DNA of 44,615 nucleotides from Gallionellales bacterium GWA2_60_142 (GTDB lineage: Bacteria > Pseudomonadota > Gammaproteobacteria > Burkholderiales > Gallionellaceae), in assembly GCA_001801085.1 (NCBI GenBank), contig MGWR01000071.1:1-44615 (forward strand), read 5' to 3'. The notes below the pieces were generated by a model. That model worked only from the letters and a program-made list of their open reading frames with translations, did no database searches and was not told the DNA's origin. Below, one piece after another: positions 17,426 through 29,030 of this stretch (its first letter is position 1; each line of letters begins with the position of its first letter). The position numbers were made by a program, and so were the translations under genes.

Positions 17426-18238
17426 TTAGCCCCTTACAGCCACGGCCTGCCCCTTGCGGGTGCATTGCGCCAGATTGGCCAATTTCGGCAGAACCTCCAA
17501 TGCATTCTCCGTGGTGGCCTGCGCAATCTCTTCGATGCTCATGCCGCGTAACTCCGCCAGCGTCTGCGCGATGCGCGGGATGTACTCGGGTTTGTTCGGC
17601 TGCCCGCGTTCGAGGAAGTCCGGCGGAATGTCAGGCGCGTCGGTCTCCAGCACGATGCTCTCCAGCGGCAAGGTTGCCGCGAGTTCGCGCAGGCGGGTGG
17701 CTCTCGAATGGGTCATCGCGCCGCCGAAGCCCAGCTTGAAGCCCTGCTTGATGAATTCGTCCGCCTGCTGGCGGCTGCCGTTGAAAGCGTGCGCGATACC
17801 TCGCACCTTGTGCTGGCGCAGGTGTTTGAGAATCACGTCCTGCGCGCGGCGGATATGCAGCAGCACCGGCAGATCGAATTCCCGCGCAAGCTTCAGTTGC
17901 TCGACGAAGAAATATTCCTGCTGTGCGCGGTCGTAATGGTCGATGAAAAAATCCAGCCCGATCTCGCCGACCGCGACGGCGTCCGGCCGCGCCAGATATT
18001 CGCGCAGCGCGAGCAGGTCGACCGGCTGAGCGCCGTCGGTATACATCGGATGGATGCCGTAGGCGGGTGCGCAGCCGGGATAGCGTTCGCATAGTTCGTG
18101 CACGATGCCGAAGTTCGCCCGCGCGACCGAGGGCACGACGATGCGGTTCACGCCGGCCGCATGCGCTGCGCTAACCAGTTCGGCCTGCGTGTCGCCGAAT
18201 TCGGCGGCGTCGAGATGGCAGTGGGTGTCGATGAACAT
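17426..18238 (-). CDS. TatD-family metal-dependent hydrolase
   Basis: The 270-residue TIM-barrel hydrolase has the TatD metal-binding residues: the N-terminal THCHLD, E in VGEIGLDFF, H in LLHIRRA, H in GIAHAFNGS and D in LETDAPDIPP. Family members act as Mg2+-dependent 3'-5' DNA/RNA exonucleases or D-aminoacyl-tRNA-type deacylases, and the subgroup (TatD, YcfH, YjjV) is not certain; the sequence is most like YjjV. It is transcribed towards tcdA and is preceded by a 300-bp repeat region. Confidence 0.88.
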   Translation of the reverse strand: MFIDTHCHLDAAEFGDTQAELVSAAHAAGVNRIVVPSVARANFGIVHELCERYPGCAPAYGIHPMYTDGAQPVDLLALREYLARPDAVAVGEIGLDFFIDHYDRAQQEYFFVEQLKLAREFDLPVLLHIRRAQDVILKHLRQHKVRGIAHAFNGSRQQADEFIKQGFKLGFGGAMTHSRATRLRELAATLPLESIVLETDAPDIPPDFLERGQPNKPEYIPRIAQTLAELRGMSIEEIAQATTENALEVLPKLANLAQCTRKGQAVAVRG

Positions 18239-18248
18239 ATGGGTTGGC

Positions 18249-18400
18249 TTGTCGTCGCTTGTAGGTTGTGTGGAGCGCCGCGATACCCAACAGTCGAATG
18301 GAAAGCATGATGGGTATTGCTACGTTAACCAGCGACTTGGCTGGCGTCGTTTGCTAGCTTAGTCGATTGGCTATGCAAAGCGCCACCCATCTACGGGCTG
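18249..18400. repeat. Cluster of palindromic repeats upstream of the TatD-family gene
   Basis: The first element, 18260-18292, runs from GTAGGTTGTGTGGAGC to GATACCCAAC, one half of the common GTTGGGTATCGC palindrome type. The second starts GATGGGTATTGC (18309-18320) and ends GCGCCACCCATC (18380-18391). Its two halves would join into a compact hairpin but are separated by the 48-bp nested element at 18326-18373. No gene is seen between 18239 and 18536. Confidence 0.65.
18326..18373 (-). repeat. 48-bp nested palindromic mini-element, copy 1
   Basis: It is the reverse complement of the element at 19666-19713 with 42 of 48 positions identical and no gaps. Its ends form imperfect 18-19-bp inverted repeats around an 11-bp centre. 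It splits a GATGGGT/ACCCATC palindrome. It is too short to code for anything and behaves like a non-autonomous insertion. Confidence 0.7.
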
Positions 18401-18429
18401 AAGTCGCTCCCACGGGGGTAGCGGTTTTC

Positions 18430-18500
18430 GTAGGAGCGGCTTTAGCCGCGAAGAGTGTGTGGAGATGCAACGTGCCCATCGCGGCTGAAGCCGCTCCTAC
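18430..18500. repeat. 71-bp paired REP-like element (family B), copy 1
   Basis: The left arm begins GTAGGAGCGGCTTTAGCCGC (18430-18449) and the right arm is its near-perfect reverse complement ending at 18500. Each arm is itself a GCGGC/GCCGC hairpin, so the pair looks like a BIME-type doublet. The 29-nt spacer differs from copy 2 (28930-29000), but the total length is the same. A half copy lies at 8701-8711 and another at about 18399-18416. Confidence 0.8.
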
Positions 18501-18536
18501 GGGGACAGCGATTTTCGATTGTCAGAGATCGAATCG

Positions 18537-19538
18537 CTAATTCATCGTCAGAATAATTTTGCCTATCATCCCGCCGGCCTCGATCAGCCTGTGCGCCTCG
18601 GCGGCCTGTTCCAGCGGCAGCCTGTGCGTGACCAGCACACCGAGTTGACCTGCCTCGACCAGCTTCGCACCTTCCTCCAGTATCCTGCGCTGGCGCACGC
18701 GTTCATCGTGCAGGTTCAGCACCTGCGGCGTGAGCATCAGTTCGAATCCCAGCGACAGATTGCGCAGCCGCGCGAGCTGTACGTCGGCTGCGGAGAGCGG
18801 TGTGGCGAGCAAGCTGACCACTTTGCCGCCGATGCGCGCCGCGTTCAGTGAGCGCAGATAAGTCTCGCCGCCGACGGTGTCGAACACCACGTCCACGCCC
18901 TTGCCCTCGGTGCAGTCCAGCGTCTCCTGCACGAAGTCCTGCTCCTTGTAGTTGATGATCTTGTCGGCATAAAGACCGCGCACCAGACCGGCCTTGCGCT
19001 CGTCGCCGACCGTGACGATGAGGTGCGCGCCGAGGTGGTGCGCCAGTTGCAGCGCGACGTGTCCGACGCCGCCCGCGGCGGCATGAATGAGTATCGTCTG
19101 CTCTGCTTGCAGGGCGGCGCGCTCGATCAGCGCCTCCCATGCGGTGATCAGCACCAGCGGGAGTGCTGCGGCATCCTGCAGGCTGAGGTTCGCGGGTTTC
19201 GCCGCGCAGTATTCCTCGTGCAGCGTGGTGTATTCGGCGTAGTTGCCCGGCTCGTCGCCCAGCCCGCCGTTGCAAAAATACACTTCGTCGCCGATCTTGA
19301 AGCGCGTCACAGCGCTGCCGATCTCCTCGACGACGCCCGCGCCGTCGCAGCCGAGAATCGCCGGCAGCTTGTCGGGATGGTAGGCGGGCTTCGCGCGCAG
19401 CTTGGTGTCCACCGGGTTCACGCCGGCGGCGGAGAGCTCCACGCGCACATGGTGAGCGGACGGCAGTTCCGGTTTCGGGATGTCGCGCAGTTGCAGTACT
19501 TCGGTGCCACCGGGCGCGGTGGCGAGTATGGCTTTCAT
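18537..19538 (-). CDS. Zinc-independent MDR / quinone oxidoreductase-like protein
   Basis: The 333-residue medium-chain dehydrogenase/reductase starts MKAILATAPGGTEVLQLRDIP. It has an N-terminal GroES-like domain (GVNPVDTKLR, LGCDGAGVVEEIG) and a Rossmann fold with AAAGGVGHVALQLA for NAD(P)H. The catalytic-zinc Cys/His set of alcohol dehydrogenases is missing, which points to the quinone oxidoreductase (QOR) branch that reduces quinones or enals. The actual substrate is unknown. It is flanked on both sides by repeat-rich intergenic DNA and looks monocistronic. Confidence 0.88.
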   Translation of the reverse strand: MKAILATAPGGTEVLQLRDIPKPELPSAHHVRVELSAAGVNPVDTKLRAKPAYHPDKLPAILGCDGAGVVEEIGSAVTRFKIGDEVYFCNGGLGDEPGNYAEYTTLHEEYCAAKPANLSLQDAAALPLVLITAWEALIERAALQAEQTILIHAAAGGVGHVALQLAHHLGAHLIVTVGDERKAGLVRGLYADKIINYKEQDFVQETLDCTEGKGVDVVFDTVGGETYLRSLNAARIGGKVVSLLATPLSAADVQLARLRNLSLGFELMLTPQVLNLHDERVRQRRILEEGAKLVEAGQLGVLVTHRLPLEQAAEAHRLIEAGGMIGKIILTMN

Positions 19539-19551
19539 AAAAATCCCCAGG

Positions 19552-19729
19552 CCGTCATTCCGGCGTAGGCCGGAATCCGGCGGGTTTATTCAACATGCAT
19601 TTAAGGTTTTGTCTCCGCATTGCGGAGGATTTTTGATTGATTGGATTCCGGCCTGATGGAACTACTAGCCATTCGACTAGGCTGTCAAACAACGTCAGCC
19701 AAGTCGCTGGTTATGCGCCGGAATGACGG
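19552..19729. repeat. Palindromic repeat family D, two inverted copies, the second interrupted
   Basis: CCGTCATTCCGGCGTAGGCC at 19552-19571, continuing GGAATCC, is one copy. An inverted copy starts GGATTCCGGCCT (19643-19654) and ends CGCCGGAATGACGG (19716-19729). The two halves of the second copy are separated by about 60 bp containing the 48-bp mini-element. The 237 bp between the MDR gene and aroC hold nothing else I can identify. Confidence 0.65.
19666..19713 (+). repeat. 48-bp nested palindromic mini-element, copy 2
   Basis: Left end TAGCCATTCGACTAGGCTG; the right end, read in reverse complement, is TAACCAGCGACTTGGCTG. These make imperfect terminal inverted repeats of 18-19 bp around TCAAACAACGT. 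It is 42/48 identical to copy 1 at 18326-18373 in the opposite orientation and interrupts a family D palindrome. Confidence 0.7.
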
Positions 19730-19775
19730 TGTGCGCTATGTTAAACTTCGCGCACTATTTTTGCGAGATAACATC

Positions 19776-20870
19776 ATGTCTGGAAACACCTTCGGCACCC
19801 TGTTCACAGTCACTTCTTTCGGCGAATCGCACGGCGCGGCCATAGGCTGCATCGTCGACGGATGCCCGCCGGGAATGGAGCTGACCGAGGCCTGCATCCA
19901 GCGCGACCTCGACCGCCGCAAGCCGGGCACCTCGCGTCACGTCACGCAGCGCCGCGAATCCGACACCGTGGAAATCCTCTCCGGCGTGTTCGAAGGCAAG
20001 ACCACCGGCACCCCCATCGCGCTGCTGATCCGCAATGAAGACCAGCGCAGCAAGGACTACGGCAGCATCGCCGAGACTTTCCGTCCCGGCCACGCTGACT
20101 ACACCTACTGGCAGAAATACGGCATCCGCGACTACCGCGGCGGCGGCCGCTCGTCCGCGCGCGAGACCGCGGCGCGCGTCGCGGCCGGCGCCATCGCGAA
20201 GAAGTGGCTGAACGAACGCTACGGCGTCGAGGTGCGCGGCTACCTCGCACAGCTCGGCGAGATCGAAGTGCCGTTCAAGAGCTGGGCCGAGCTGAACGAA
20301 GAGGGCAACAGCTTCTTCGTCGCCGACGCGAGCTACGTCGGCCAGCTGGAAGACTACATGGACGAGCTGCGCAAGTCCGGCGACTCCATAGGCGCGAAGC
20401 TATCCGTCGTCGCGAACAACGTGCCCGTCGGCTGGGGCGAGCCGGTGTTCGACAGATTGGATGCCGACATCGCCCACGCGCTGATGGGCATCAACGCGGT
20501 GAAGGGCGTCGAGATCGGCGCGGGCTTCGCCTGCGTCACCCAGCGCGGCAGCGAACACGGCGACGAACTCACCCCGGATGGTTTCCGTTCCAATAACGCC
20601 GGCGGCGTCCTCGGCGGCATCTCCACCGGCCAGGACATCGTCGCCCACTACGCGATCAAACCGACCTCCAGCATCCGCATCGAACGCGACTCCATCGACA
20701 AGGCCGGCAACCCCGTGAGCGTCTCCACCGAAGGCCGCCACGACCCCTGCGTCGGCATCCGCGCCACGCCCATCGCCGAGGCGATGGTGGCGCTGGTGCT
20801 GATGGATCATGCGCTGAGGCATAGGGCGCAGAATGGGGATGTGGTTTGCGAGACGCCGAAGATTTGCTAA
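19776..20870 (+). CDS. aroC: Chorismate synthase
   Basis: The 364-residue enzyme catalyses the last step of the shikimate pathway, EPSP to chorismate, with reduced FMN. All three family signatures are visible: [18 protein letters not shown] near the N-terminus, [19 protein letters not shown] in the middle, and [16 protein letters not shown] near the end. The ATG at 19776 ([20 protein letters not shown]) is the family start; upstream in-frame codons run into repeat DNA. plsC follows 7 nt after the stop and could be co-transcribed. Confidence 0.97.
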
Positions 20871-21640: not shown

Positions 21641-21707
21641 TTTGGATGTTCGATGTTGATGTCGGGTTGCGACCTACATTTCTACAAGCTCTCGCAACCC
21701 TCAGCCT

Positions 21708-22023
21708 TCACCACAAGAACCTCGCCGCCACAAACGCCGCGATCATGGAAAACGCCAAAGCTAATTTGGCCGCCGCCCCGATCACCAATCCGAGCGTCGC
21801 ACCGATACCTGCTTTGCCCGCCGCCGCCATGTCTCGCCGCGCGGAGAGTTCGCCTGCGGCAGCGCCCACGAAGGGGCCGAGCAACAGTCCCGGCAAACCG
21901 AAGAAGACGCCGACGACGGTGCCGATGGCCGCGCCCATCATGGCTCGCGGCGATGCTCCGAAATGTTTGGCCCCCAAGATGCCGGCGAGGAAATCGGCCG
22001 CGTAGGTCAGGAGCGCCAGAACG
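21708..22023 (-). pseudogene. Truncated second copy of the DUF456 membrane protein gene
   Basis: The frame encodes about 105 residues that align end to end with the C-terminal two thirds of the intact DUF456 protein at 22883-23374. Similarity stops abruptly at 22023, where the REP palindrome of the RAYT locus begins. The N-terminal transmembrane part is gone; the apparent start (MCALRGLFV) is repeat-derived. Positions 21895-22023 are identical base for base to 23070-23198, whereas the rest is clearly diverged. The similarity extends a few bases past the stop codon. Confidence 0.8.
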
Positions 22024-22047: not shown

Positions 22048-22139
22048 GTAGGGCGTCAATAAGCGTAGCGCATTGCGCCGGATGGAATCAATGTACGGCA
22101 ACACATACGGCGCAATGCGCTGCGCTTATTGCGCCCTAC
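22048..22139. repeat. Left inverted REP pair of the RAYT locus
   Basis: Copy one (22048-22080) begins GTAGGGCGTCAATAAGCG and ends GCGCATTGCGCCG. Copy two (22108-22139), read on the minus strand, begins GTAGGGCGCAATAAGCGC and ends GCGCATTGCGCCG. Within each copy, GCGCA/TGCGC-type arms can fold into a hairpin. Confidence 0.8.
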
Positions 22140-22211: not shown

Positions 22212-22742
22212 ATGCCTGATTACCGTCGCGCCTGGCATCCGGGCGGCACTTATTTCTTTACCGTCAATCTGCTGCAACGGCAGGGTAATGATCTGCTGAC
22301 CCGGCATGTGGATTTGCTGCGCGGGGCGGTGGCGACGGTGAGGGCACGGCATCCCTTCGTTATTCATGGCTGGGTGGTGTTGCCGGAACACTTGCATTGC
22401 GTGATCGAACTTCCGCCCGATGATTCCGATTTCGCGACCCGCTGGCGGCTGATTAAGGTCGCTTTTTCCAAGGCATTGCCAAAAACCGAACGGCGCTCAT
22501 CGGTTCGCATGGCGCGCAACGAACGGGGAATATGGCAACGCCGCTATTGGGAACACTTGATTCGCGATGAGGCGGATTTTCGTGCGCATATGGATTACGT
22601 CCATATCAATCCGATCAAGCATGGCTTGGTCAAACGGCTCACGGATTGGCCGTATTCGACTTTTCACCGATTGGTCGAGCAAGGTGTTTATCCGGCGGAT
22701 TGGGCGGGCGGTTTCGAAGGGGCGCTTGGGTATGAGGATTGA
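22212..22742 (+). CDS. REP-associated tyrosine transposase (RAYT)
   Basis: The 176-residue member of the Y1/HUH family begins MPDYRRAWHPGGTYFFTVNL. The HUH-type pair is H60-L-H62 in LPEHLHCVIELP, and the likely catalytic Tyr129 is in MDYVHINPIKHGLV, followed by W-P-Y-S-T-F as in other RAYTs. These single-strand endonucleases cut and join REP hairpins and are thought to mobilise them. The gene appears intact. It is enclosed by repeats whose sequence matches no other family in the window, so they are probably its substrates (inference). Confidence 0.92.
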   Translation: MPDYRRAWHPGGTYFFTVNLLQRQGNDLLTRHVDLLRGAVATVRARHPFVIHGWVVLPEHLHCVIELPPDDSDFATRWRLIKVAFSKALPKTERRSSVRMARNERGIWQRRYWEHLIRDEADFRAHMDYVHINPIKHGLVKRLTDWPYSTFHRLVEQGVYPADWAGGFEGALGYED

Positions 22743-22743
22743 G

Positions 22744-22811
22744 ACATACGGCGCAATGCGCTTCGCTTACCTCGCAGAGGTTCTTGCACCCTCCGGGAGT
22801 TGACGCCCTAC
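22744..22811. repeat. Right REP of the RAYT locus, interrupted
   Basis: The repeat starts ACATACGGCGCAATGCGC (22744-22761), continues TTCGCTTA and resumes at TTGACGCCCTAC (22800-22811). About 30 bp separate the two parts where the left copies have none. The inserted stretch contains two small hairpins, CCTC-GCA-GAGG and CTC-CGG-GAG. Confidence 0.65.
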
Positions 22812-22882
22812 TTCCGTCATTTCCTAGCCAAGGATGGGCATATTTTTGTAGCTATCCTACAAATTACAGCCGCTCGTAACCC

Positions 22883-23374
22883 TCACCAGATGAACCTCGC
22901 CGCGACAAACACCGCGAGCATGGAAAACGCCAGGGCCAGTTTTGCGGCCGCACCGATCACCAATCCCAGCGTAGCACCTACGCCCGCCTTGCCGGCCGCC
23001 AGCATGCCGCGCCGCGCGGAGAGCTCGCCCGCGGCAGCGCCCACGAATGGGCCCAGCAACAGTCCCGGAAAACCGAAGAAGACGCCGACGACGGTGCCGA
23101 TGGCCGCGCCCATCATGGCTCGCGGCGATGCTCCGAAATGTTTGGCCCCCAAGATGCCGGCGAGGAAATCGGCCGCGTAGGTCAGGAGCGCCAGAACGGA
23201 CAGGAACGCCAATGTGCCGGTTCCGACAAAGGCGAAGTCTTCGATCCACGCGGCGAGAACCAGACCGCCGAGTATCAGGAGTGCGCCGGGTATGGCGGGC
23301 AGCACCAGGCCTGCGATTCCGACGGCGACCAGCAAGATCGCCGCAAGCCAGAGCAGGGCGGCGATCCAGTCCAT
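22883..23374 (-). CDS. DUF456-family membrane protein
   Basis: A 163-residue hydrophobic protein starting MDWIAALLWLAAILLVAVGIAGLVLPAIPG, with about four to five membrane segments and a glycine-rich core (GAAIGTVVGVFFGFPGLLLGPFVGAAAGEL), the pattern of DUF456 (PF04306). The function is unknown. The start lies 4 nt after the msbA stop, so the genes are probably one transcript. An upstream in-frame extension to 23425 overlaps msbA and is not used. A truncated second copy lies at 21708-22023. Confidence 0.85.
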   Translation of the reverse strand: MDWIAALLWLAAILLVAVGIAGLVLPAIPGALLILGGLVLAAWIEDFAFVGTGTLAFLSVLALLTYAADFLAGILGAKHFGASPRAMMGAAIGTVVGVFFGFPGLLLGPFVGAAAGELSARRGMLAAGKAGVGATLGLVIGAAAKLALAFSMLAVFVAARFIW

Positions 23375-28895: not shown

Positions 28896-28929
28896 TCAAG
28901 CTACGCCGTCTAACGGAGAGCTCCCCTTG

Positions 28930-29000
28930 GTGGGAGCGGCTTTAGCCGCGATAAGCCGTGTAGCGAATGTCGAAGAAATCGCGGCTAAAGCCGCTCCCAC
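28930..29000. repeat. 71-bp paired REP-like element (family B), copy 2
   Basis: The arms begin GTGGGAGCGGCTTTAGCCGC (28930-28949) and end GGCTAAAGCCGCTCCCAC at 29000. They are the family B arms with one compensated change (A to G on one side, T to C on the other) that keeps the pairing. The length equals copy 1 exactly; the spacer is different. It lies between the convergent ends of the EF-hand gene and midA and could act as a bidirectional RNA hairpin. Confidence 0.8.
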
Positions 29001-29030
29001 AAATGCATCCTGCCTGAATGGATTTTGGGA

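Follow-up and report, generated by a model that had tools for sequence, protein, structure and literature searches.

A short hairpin repeat with two alternative 5′ tails, inserted in other repeats of Gallionellales genomes, and its possible mobility

The two window copies and the spread of the family

The window, as we call the whole 44,615-nucleotide (nt) stretch of contig MGWR01000071.1 analyzed here (Gallionellales bacterium GWA2_60_142), contains two intergenic copies of a short hairpin element. A gapless comparison of 19666-19713 with the reverse complement of 18326-18373 shows 42 identical positions out of 48, as noted in a preliminary description of this DNA and as confirmed by a repeat finder (88%) and by BLAST against the genome itself (E = 1.1e-10). 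According to the repeat finder, the inverted repeat linking the two sites ends at the shared 48 nt, and we therefore see no segmental duplication. Each copy does lie inside a short palindrome, with the half-palindromes GATGGGT (18309-18315) and ACCCATC (18385-18391) around the first site and GGATTCCGG (19643-19651) and CCGGAATGACGG (19718-19729) around the second. In other respects the initial picture had to be redrawn. The common 48 nt are not a unit of their own but a hairpin core borne by two element types, A and B, the real units being 60 nt (A) and 56 nt (B) with 5′ tails; the imperfect 18-19-bp inverted repeats seen at the ends exist, but they correspond to the arms of a single hairpin; and instead of one element inserted twice, the window holds two types with different tails and different target rules. 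The features are as follows (^ marks the insertion point).

18309-18325, minus strand: half of the palindrome that hosts the type B element (GATGGGT...), from sequence
18326-18381, minus strand: type B element, 56 nt, with the 8-nt 5′ tail GCTTTGCA (18374-18381) and the 48-nt hairpin (18326-18373)
18382-18394, minus strand: other half of the type B host repeat, with a GTAG tag, from sequence
19552-19578, minus strand: uninterrupted host repeat of the type A kind (CCGTCATTCCGGCGTAGGCCGGAATCC), in the same intergenic region as the A copy, from sequence
19643-19654, plus strand: left half of the type A host repeat GGATTCCGGCCT^GCGCCGGAATGACGG, from sequence and rejoined-flank matches
19655-19714, plus strand: type A element, 60 nt, with the 11-nt tail GATGGAACTAC (19655-19665), the hairpin (19666-19713) and a final T (19714)
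19715-19729, plus strand: right half of the type A host repeat GGATTCCGGCCT^GCGCCGGAATGACGG, from sequence and rejoined-flank matches

Together, 18309-18325 and 18382-18394 make up a GTAG-tagged repeat resembling repetitive extragenic palindromic (REP) sequences, with GTAG on the minus strand at 18391-18394. The flanks of the type A copy, rejoined with one T, give 27 ungapped matches to uninterrupted repeats, and its final T (19714) is formally a possible 1-nt target duplication. Two covariance models were used, namely, the A model (R1), from 19 copies of the genome itself, and the B model (R2), from 14 sequences including the window B copy; they match the window A and B copies with E = 1.7e-17 and E = 8.9e-16, respectively, each copy being itself part of its model.

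The genome itself (2.34 Mb, 71 contigs, 80.5% complete) gave 46 matches to the A model at E ≤ 1, 42 of them at E < 0.001. BLAST with the second site and its flanks gave 56 matches, 39 of them at E < 0.003, several of the weaker ones being host repeat only. The copies displayed carry unlike flanks, and we are therefore dealing with a dispersed family. Matches were found in 59 of 61 genomes of the genus, the two without any (labeled G023 and G036) being 99% and 91% complete. Numbers per genome range from 0 to at least 101 (101 with the B model, A copies included); as 54 candidates per genome were scored in the genus scan, 93 in the B model scan and 14 in the class-wide scan, both copy numbers and the presence across the class are minimum values. 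The genome sets overlap, exact duplicates having been removed, and a single insertion event may underlie copies found in related genomes.

Beyond the genus, no match was found in 40 sampled genomes of 40 other genera, and in a class-wide sample at least 5 of 369 genomes match, including the present one, with single copies in other families. Of the four foreign single copies, three occupy short palindrome-like sites between genes and the fourth (locus L343) does not clearly do so; the one in L341, a complete genome, carries a compensatory change in the second stem. The hairpin pattern matched at least 117 named stretches, and among the matches listed, 65 are labeled Gallionella, Gallionellaceae or Gallionellales and 3 Candidatus Ferrigenium, the remaining labels being Nitrosomonadales and other proteobacteria, including Sideroxydans, Sulfuricella, Thiobacillus, Sulfuricaulis and Burkholderiaceae; these labels are those of the assembled genomes. 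Collections of plasmids and phages gave no match at E 0.01, and three IMG/VR contigs match. A search of Rfam with 17500-20500 returned three matches up to E 10, none at the A or B element. Weak Rfam miRNA matches, under their gathering scores, fall at 18427-18504, beside the B copy, where a pair of GTAGGAGCGGCTTTAGCCGC-type repeats lies in inverted order; such a pair recurs at 28927-29003.

Hairpin structure and insertion junctions

The 374 copies drawn from fetched DNA comprise 241 with the A tail, 102 with the B tail and 31 with other tails that were left out of both types, so that the two tails recur in 343 of 374; the outer arms had to fit a loose pattern, which favors outer-stem pairing in this set. 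Type A, which follows YT, consists of GATGRAACWAC, the hairpin and T, and measures 60 nt, or 54 nt with the short tip form GCCCGCAAGCGGGC; type B, which follows A or G, consists of GCTTTGCA and the hairpin, and measures 56 nt. The A tail goes with the 3′ terminus ...GGTTAT and the B tail with ...GGTTA or ...GGTCA. The hairpin has an outer stem of 6 bp (TAGCCA) including a G.T wobble, a 2x1 internal loop, 5 bp (CGACT), a mismatch and a variable tip, the loop often being AAANNAC. Two internal-loop subclasses, T/C and C/T, are present with both tails (207 and 28 copies of A; 69 and 30 of B).

The hairpin with its 2x1 internal loop is the lowest-energy fold in most of the copies folded; the window B copy, folded together with its tail plus three bases of the host, adopts another lowest-energy fold, and its hairpin rests on the alignment. 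Both sides had changed in 7 of 16 pairs among the 19 A copies, and the covariation score was 0.223, compared to 0.084 shuffled and 0.008-0.055 for slid partners. In 333 A and B copies (10 of the 343, of unusual length, were left out), every one of the 11 stem pairs is formed in at least 329, with exchanges between A-T (296) and G-C (33), between C-G (282) and T-A (47) and between G-C (299) and C-G (31). The third stem pair is G.T in 326 of the 333; it can be formed by the tail-first strand alone, and the tail-first strand is therefore the folded one.

A G-U-type pair and a recurring AAANNAC loop would also suit an RNA-level element, in which DNA copies of a hairpin transcript are made at YT or purine sites. 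We regard this as very unlikely, since tail-less copies, which 5′ truncation would be expected to leave, are few (L105 and L212), and no reverse transcriptase was recognized by eye near the copies, no direct search for reverse transcriptases having been made. The two tail-less copies seemingly also miss approximately 4 nt of target and may represent one-sided deletions or another joining mode.

Occupied sites were compared with empty ones, as the preliminary description had proposed, and the junctions proved clean, with target duplication absent or at most one base. A T precedes the A tail in 236 of 241 copies if one additional base is tolerated ahead of the 11-nt tail and in 214 otherwise, and C stands at −2 in 186, the A target thus being mostly YT. 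The base before the B tail is A in 77 of the 102 copies, G in 20, T in 3 and C in 2; in the 73 copies from loci fetched later by the B model, the counts are A 58, G 13 and T 2. The tail, the target base and the 3′ terminus change together between A and B, and the hairpin is common to both.

The flanks of 200 A copies (those remaining after nested rows and rows without T at either end were dropped) were rejoined and compared with the rest of the fetched DNA. With one T, 118 have an ungapped counterpart, compared to 23 with two T, 10 with none and 5 for shuffled flanks; for B, the plain join gave 63 of 102, compared to 18 when an A was added, 5 when one base was removed and 11 shuffled. Random YT sites at the same loci had a repeat counterpart in 117 of 600 and 106 of 594 cases, part of this background coming from homologous genes among the loci, and a few of the 118 A matches lie in the same locus. 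Since random sites also give counterparts, 118 of 200 is an enrichment and not a proof for each copy; since A copies exceed the random rate, repeats are preferred hosts. Longer comparisons are available for an A copy in L328, whose empty homologous site in L388 extends over 600 bp at 85% identity with no junction gap, and for an own-genome copy (L006), empty in L139 over 357 bp (78%). The 46 matches in the genome itself, their unrelated flanks and these empty counterparts bear out the early suggestion of mobility by insertion rather than by duplication of flanks.

In most A and B copies, the left flank and the right end formally share one base, as would be expected if the elements were miniature inverted-repeat transposable elements (MITEs) that a transposase moved as double strands, duplicating 1 bp of target (T or A). 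Such elements, small palindromic ones included, are likewise non-autonomous and dispersed. However, neither GATG...TTAT nor GCTT...TTA, the ends of this family, forms terminal inverted repeats, the tail stands outside the palindrome, target duplication is 0-1 nt and the G.T pair is strand specific. In addition, no longer copy with the same ends was recognized, and among 685 open reading frames (ORFs) within 500 bp of the copies, inspection of the 25 largest clusters by eye revealed no recurrent mobile gene, a small RAYT cluster being due to RAYT loci having been fetched. We therefore consider a double-strand MITE unlikely.

Host repeats and nesting

More than half of the tested insertions lie within other dispersed repeats, including CGTC- and GTAG-tagged REPs and other intergenic repeats; some insertions are in members of the same family. 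A GTAGG or CCTAC tag is nearby in 37 of the 102 B copies and in 21 of the 241 A copies, and a CGTC-type tag in 16 of 241 A copies and 1 of 102 B copies. Among the B hosts are loops of GTAG-tagged REPs; in L384, an uninterrupted GTAGGATGGGTTGAGCGCAGCGATACCCATC adjoins a filled one. Six-base inverted arms across the junction occur in 54 B copies (14 when shuffled) and 69 A copies (32 when shuffled), in line with the palindromic hosts first proposed, but some A hosts are plain tandem repeats or other dispersed repeats. When the flanks are folded, the junction falls in a hairpin loop in 47 of 102 B and 76 of 241 A copies, compared to 25% of random positions.

Nesting within the family takes two forms. 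Sixteen A copies sit at the foot of another family copy (ACT^AGCC), 13 of them being of the C/T hairpin subclass, compared to 15 of 225 A copies elsewhere (Fisher p 1.6e-11), and six B copies lie inside the loop of another family hairpin; common descent may inflate these nesting counts as well as those of loops, tags and arms given above. Mutual information between flanks and element columns, computed to look for a guide, is dominated by the nested copies and thereby confounded.

An immobile hairpin with a useful role, regulatory or as a terminator, would account for the strong conservation of structure and for the position of both window copies between genes. It is contradicted by the uninterrupted host repeats with clean junctions, and the nested copies and the range in copy number within the genus also speak against it, which makes it extremely improbable.

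We also considered a modular, programmable-like parasite of parasites, in which one conserved hairpin would pass between alternative 5′ tails and the tail, as a guide, would set both the target and the 3′ terminus, directing A to YT in CGTC-type and other repeats and B to purines in the loops of GTAG-REPs and of hairpins of its own family. We consider this idea possible, at rather less than an even chance. Tail type may even define a wider superfamily beyond the A/B hairpin.

Several composite arrangements were seen. In L303 and L307, near 1500 (minus strand), a second hairpin, of another sequence but bearing a tail of this family's kind (GATGAAACCAC), interrupts an A copy at GACT^AAGC. Two-hairpin forms (L101, L109, L117, L184 and others) were examined as IS200-like left and right ends and rejected, their junctions fitting A-in-A nesting at ACT^AGCC. 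Half-matches in L114, L070, L129, L167 and L174 were likewise rejected as long autonomous versions and look like elements broken by other insertions. A AAGTCNGACAGGCTGCTAG-like sequence adjoins broken elements (L129:1-131 and L167:5712-6050) and in L168 recurs in opposite orientations; it looks like the end of an insertion sequence (IS) landing in hairpins. A larger dispersed repeat (L010, L012, L087, L202, L207, L309 and L310) carries A in one arm and an inverted B or B-like copy in the other, approximately 60-140 bp apart where measured, and L324 is a version without B.

Candidate mobilizing enzymes and known relatives

The dispersed, nested copies, with their common structure, clean junctions, target rule and coupling of tail to target, could be explained by a family of non-autonomous mobile hairpins of ~54-60 nt that would be moved as single strands in trans, in a REP- or IS200-like manner. 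We give this explanation about an even chance and favor it because the way in which Y1 HUH enzymes process IS200/IS605 elements and REPs is in keeping with these junctions, with the polarity of a single strand and with a 5′ target that is fixed. As envisaged, in part from the general logic of IS200/IS605 ends, the tail-first strand would fold into the hairpin, and the copy would be excised or copied and then joined just 3′ of a short target, duplicating one base at most or none; the A tail would join after YT and the B tail after A or G. By analogy with REP or IS200/IS605 logic, mobility would be of the single-strand HUH/Y1 kind, with an enzyme acting in trans, and the tail may help to choose the target.

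The window contains a gene for an enzyme of this general kind:

22212-22742: RAYT gene (NF047646, E = 1.5e-59)

It is flanked by an inverted repeat (22057-22084, 22104-22131 and 22745-22769) unrelated to the hairpin element, and the preliminary description was right that the latter does not resemble the RAYT-linked REP of the window. The gene also lies between two 300-nt stretches that are 86% alike (21682-21981 and 22857-23156), which gives the impression of an insertion between tandem gene copies.

A number of observations weigh against single-strand movement in trans as just outlined. The search for a mobilizer among Y1_Tnp and RAYT loci yielded no partner gene sharing the ends of the family. 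No element was found within 1.5 kb on each side of 30 Y1_Tnp (PF01797) loci, 21 of them from the genus, a sample that covers part of the Y1 genes there. At 90 RAYT loci, an A copy lies within 500 bp at one (L255, 246 bp) and a B copy at three. G022 and G046, both 83% complete and carrying at least 59 matches apiece, and G048, 95% complete and carrying at least 28, lack matches to PF01797 and NF047646 alike. At its 5′ foot, the hairpin mostly reads C(T/A/G)AC in type A and TGCA in type B, with no GTAG or CGTC tag, and attempts to draw guide-target base pairing gave no scheme suiting both tails. A junctions are more paired than nearby YT sites (unpaired 0.47 versus 0.56, p 0.002), the empty site of L006 in L139 has C rather than T before the junction, and the number of pair types in the 19 A copies is not above that of shuffles (63/500). 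Orientation relative to the replication strand (with the terminus assumed opposite dnaA and rows tallied by hand) agrees in 19 of 26 A-like rows of G040 (p 0.029), three of which also match the B model. In the same genome it agrees in only 1 of 6 hairpin-only (B-like) rows, and on contig C5 of G027, the ori contig, in 3 of 8 A rows; by GC skew, a weak proxy, 115 of 213 are positive (sign not significant; mean 0.010, t-test p 0.018).

IS91 (Y2 HUH) was rejected as the mobilizer, as its Y2_Tnp domain (PF04986) is too rare (21 of 61 genomes) and is absent from the element-rich G016, G025, G046, G049 and G055.

The elements might instead be REPs moved by genome-encoded RAYT proteins, that is, an ordinary REP-RAYT system with an unusual repeat. 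RAYT (NF047646) matches occur in 53 of the 61 genus genomes, 43 of them above the family cutoff, and element counts, taken as lower bounds, show a weak rank correlation with RAYT counts (rho 0.39, p 0.002; 61 genomes). According to PMC8266576, RAYT proteins cut at CT or CA, selected by a GTAG guide, and A insertion 3′ of CT without duplication resembles this cleavage dinucleotide, our junctions being read from the sequence. The few copies beside RAYT genes point the same way; all three RAYT-adjacent B copies lie inside GTAG repeats beside the gene, and none of the 90 loci was seen to have an element on both sides. However, the B target of A or G is neither CT nor CA, and GTAG occurs in part of the A copies on the opposite strand and on the 3′ side only, not at the 5′ foot. 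Against this system also stand the element-rich G022 and G046, which lack RAYT matches, and G023 and G001, which have three RAYT matches each, yet 0 and 3 element copies, respectively; nor is there a clear correlation with PF01797 counts (rho 0.27, p 0.11; 37 genomes). On balance we judge a REP-RAYT origin rather improbable. As neither a GTAG foot nor RAYT linkage was found as a rule, the family is not classed as GTAG-REP.

Among known systems, REPs and the ends of IS200/IS605, with their non-autonomous derivatives, stand close to the family. Like REPs (GTAG/CGTC; REP/BIME/REPIN), the family is small, dispersed, of high copy number and imperfectly palindromic, with an unpaired motif beside the stem, and it occurs as singles, pairs and groups. 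Unlike them, it measures 54-60 nt with an 8-11-nt 5′ tail, has two tails on one hairpin and different target bases, inserts into GTAG- and CGTC-tagged repeats, and is linked to RAYT in single cases only. With IS200/IS605 ends, as described in PMC8266576 and PMC6006769, it shares a bulged hairpin, strand specificity and a duplication-free insertion on the 3′ side of a short fixed sequence. It differs in having one hairpin rather than two, and no tnpA with A/B ends was found at the 30 Y1_Tnp loci.

IS elements that target REPs, such as IS621 and IS1397, are complete IS, ~1 kb or longer, and encode a transposase of their own; the present family likewise uses REPs as insertion hosts and measures 54-60 nt without a gene. 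REPs within palindromes have also been published, namely, GTAG-23 of T. roseum, CGTC-1 dimers of H. neapolitanus and GTAG-15 dimers of A. variabilis, in PMC3733652. The same paper states that CGTC REPs lack a dedicated transposase and lists S. lithotrophicus among the CGTC-positive species, with Gallionella and Sideroxydans not named in full there. The claim that no such family had been described thus holds in part: hairpins inside palindromes are on record, but the A/B family with its tail-coupled target was not found in the open-access literature, most subscription papers lying outside that search. We therefore regard it as a REP-like or IS200-like hairpin repeat; REPs in palindromes and IS in REPs (the latter reportedly in PMC1525189 and PMC11208160) were already known, and the A/B family apparently was not.

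In these genomes, REP-sized hairpins appear to parasitize REPs and each other, and many filled and uninterrupted sites can be compared. Two tails on one hairpin, with different targets, would amount to a natural experiment on target choice in single-strand transposition, and the family bears on whether REP-like elements may spread in genomes without a detected RAYT.

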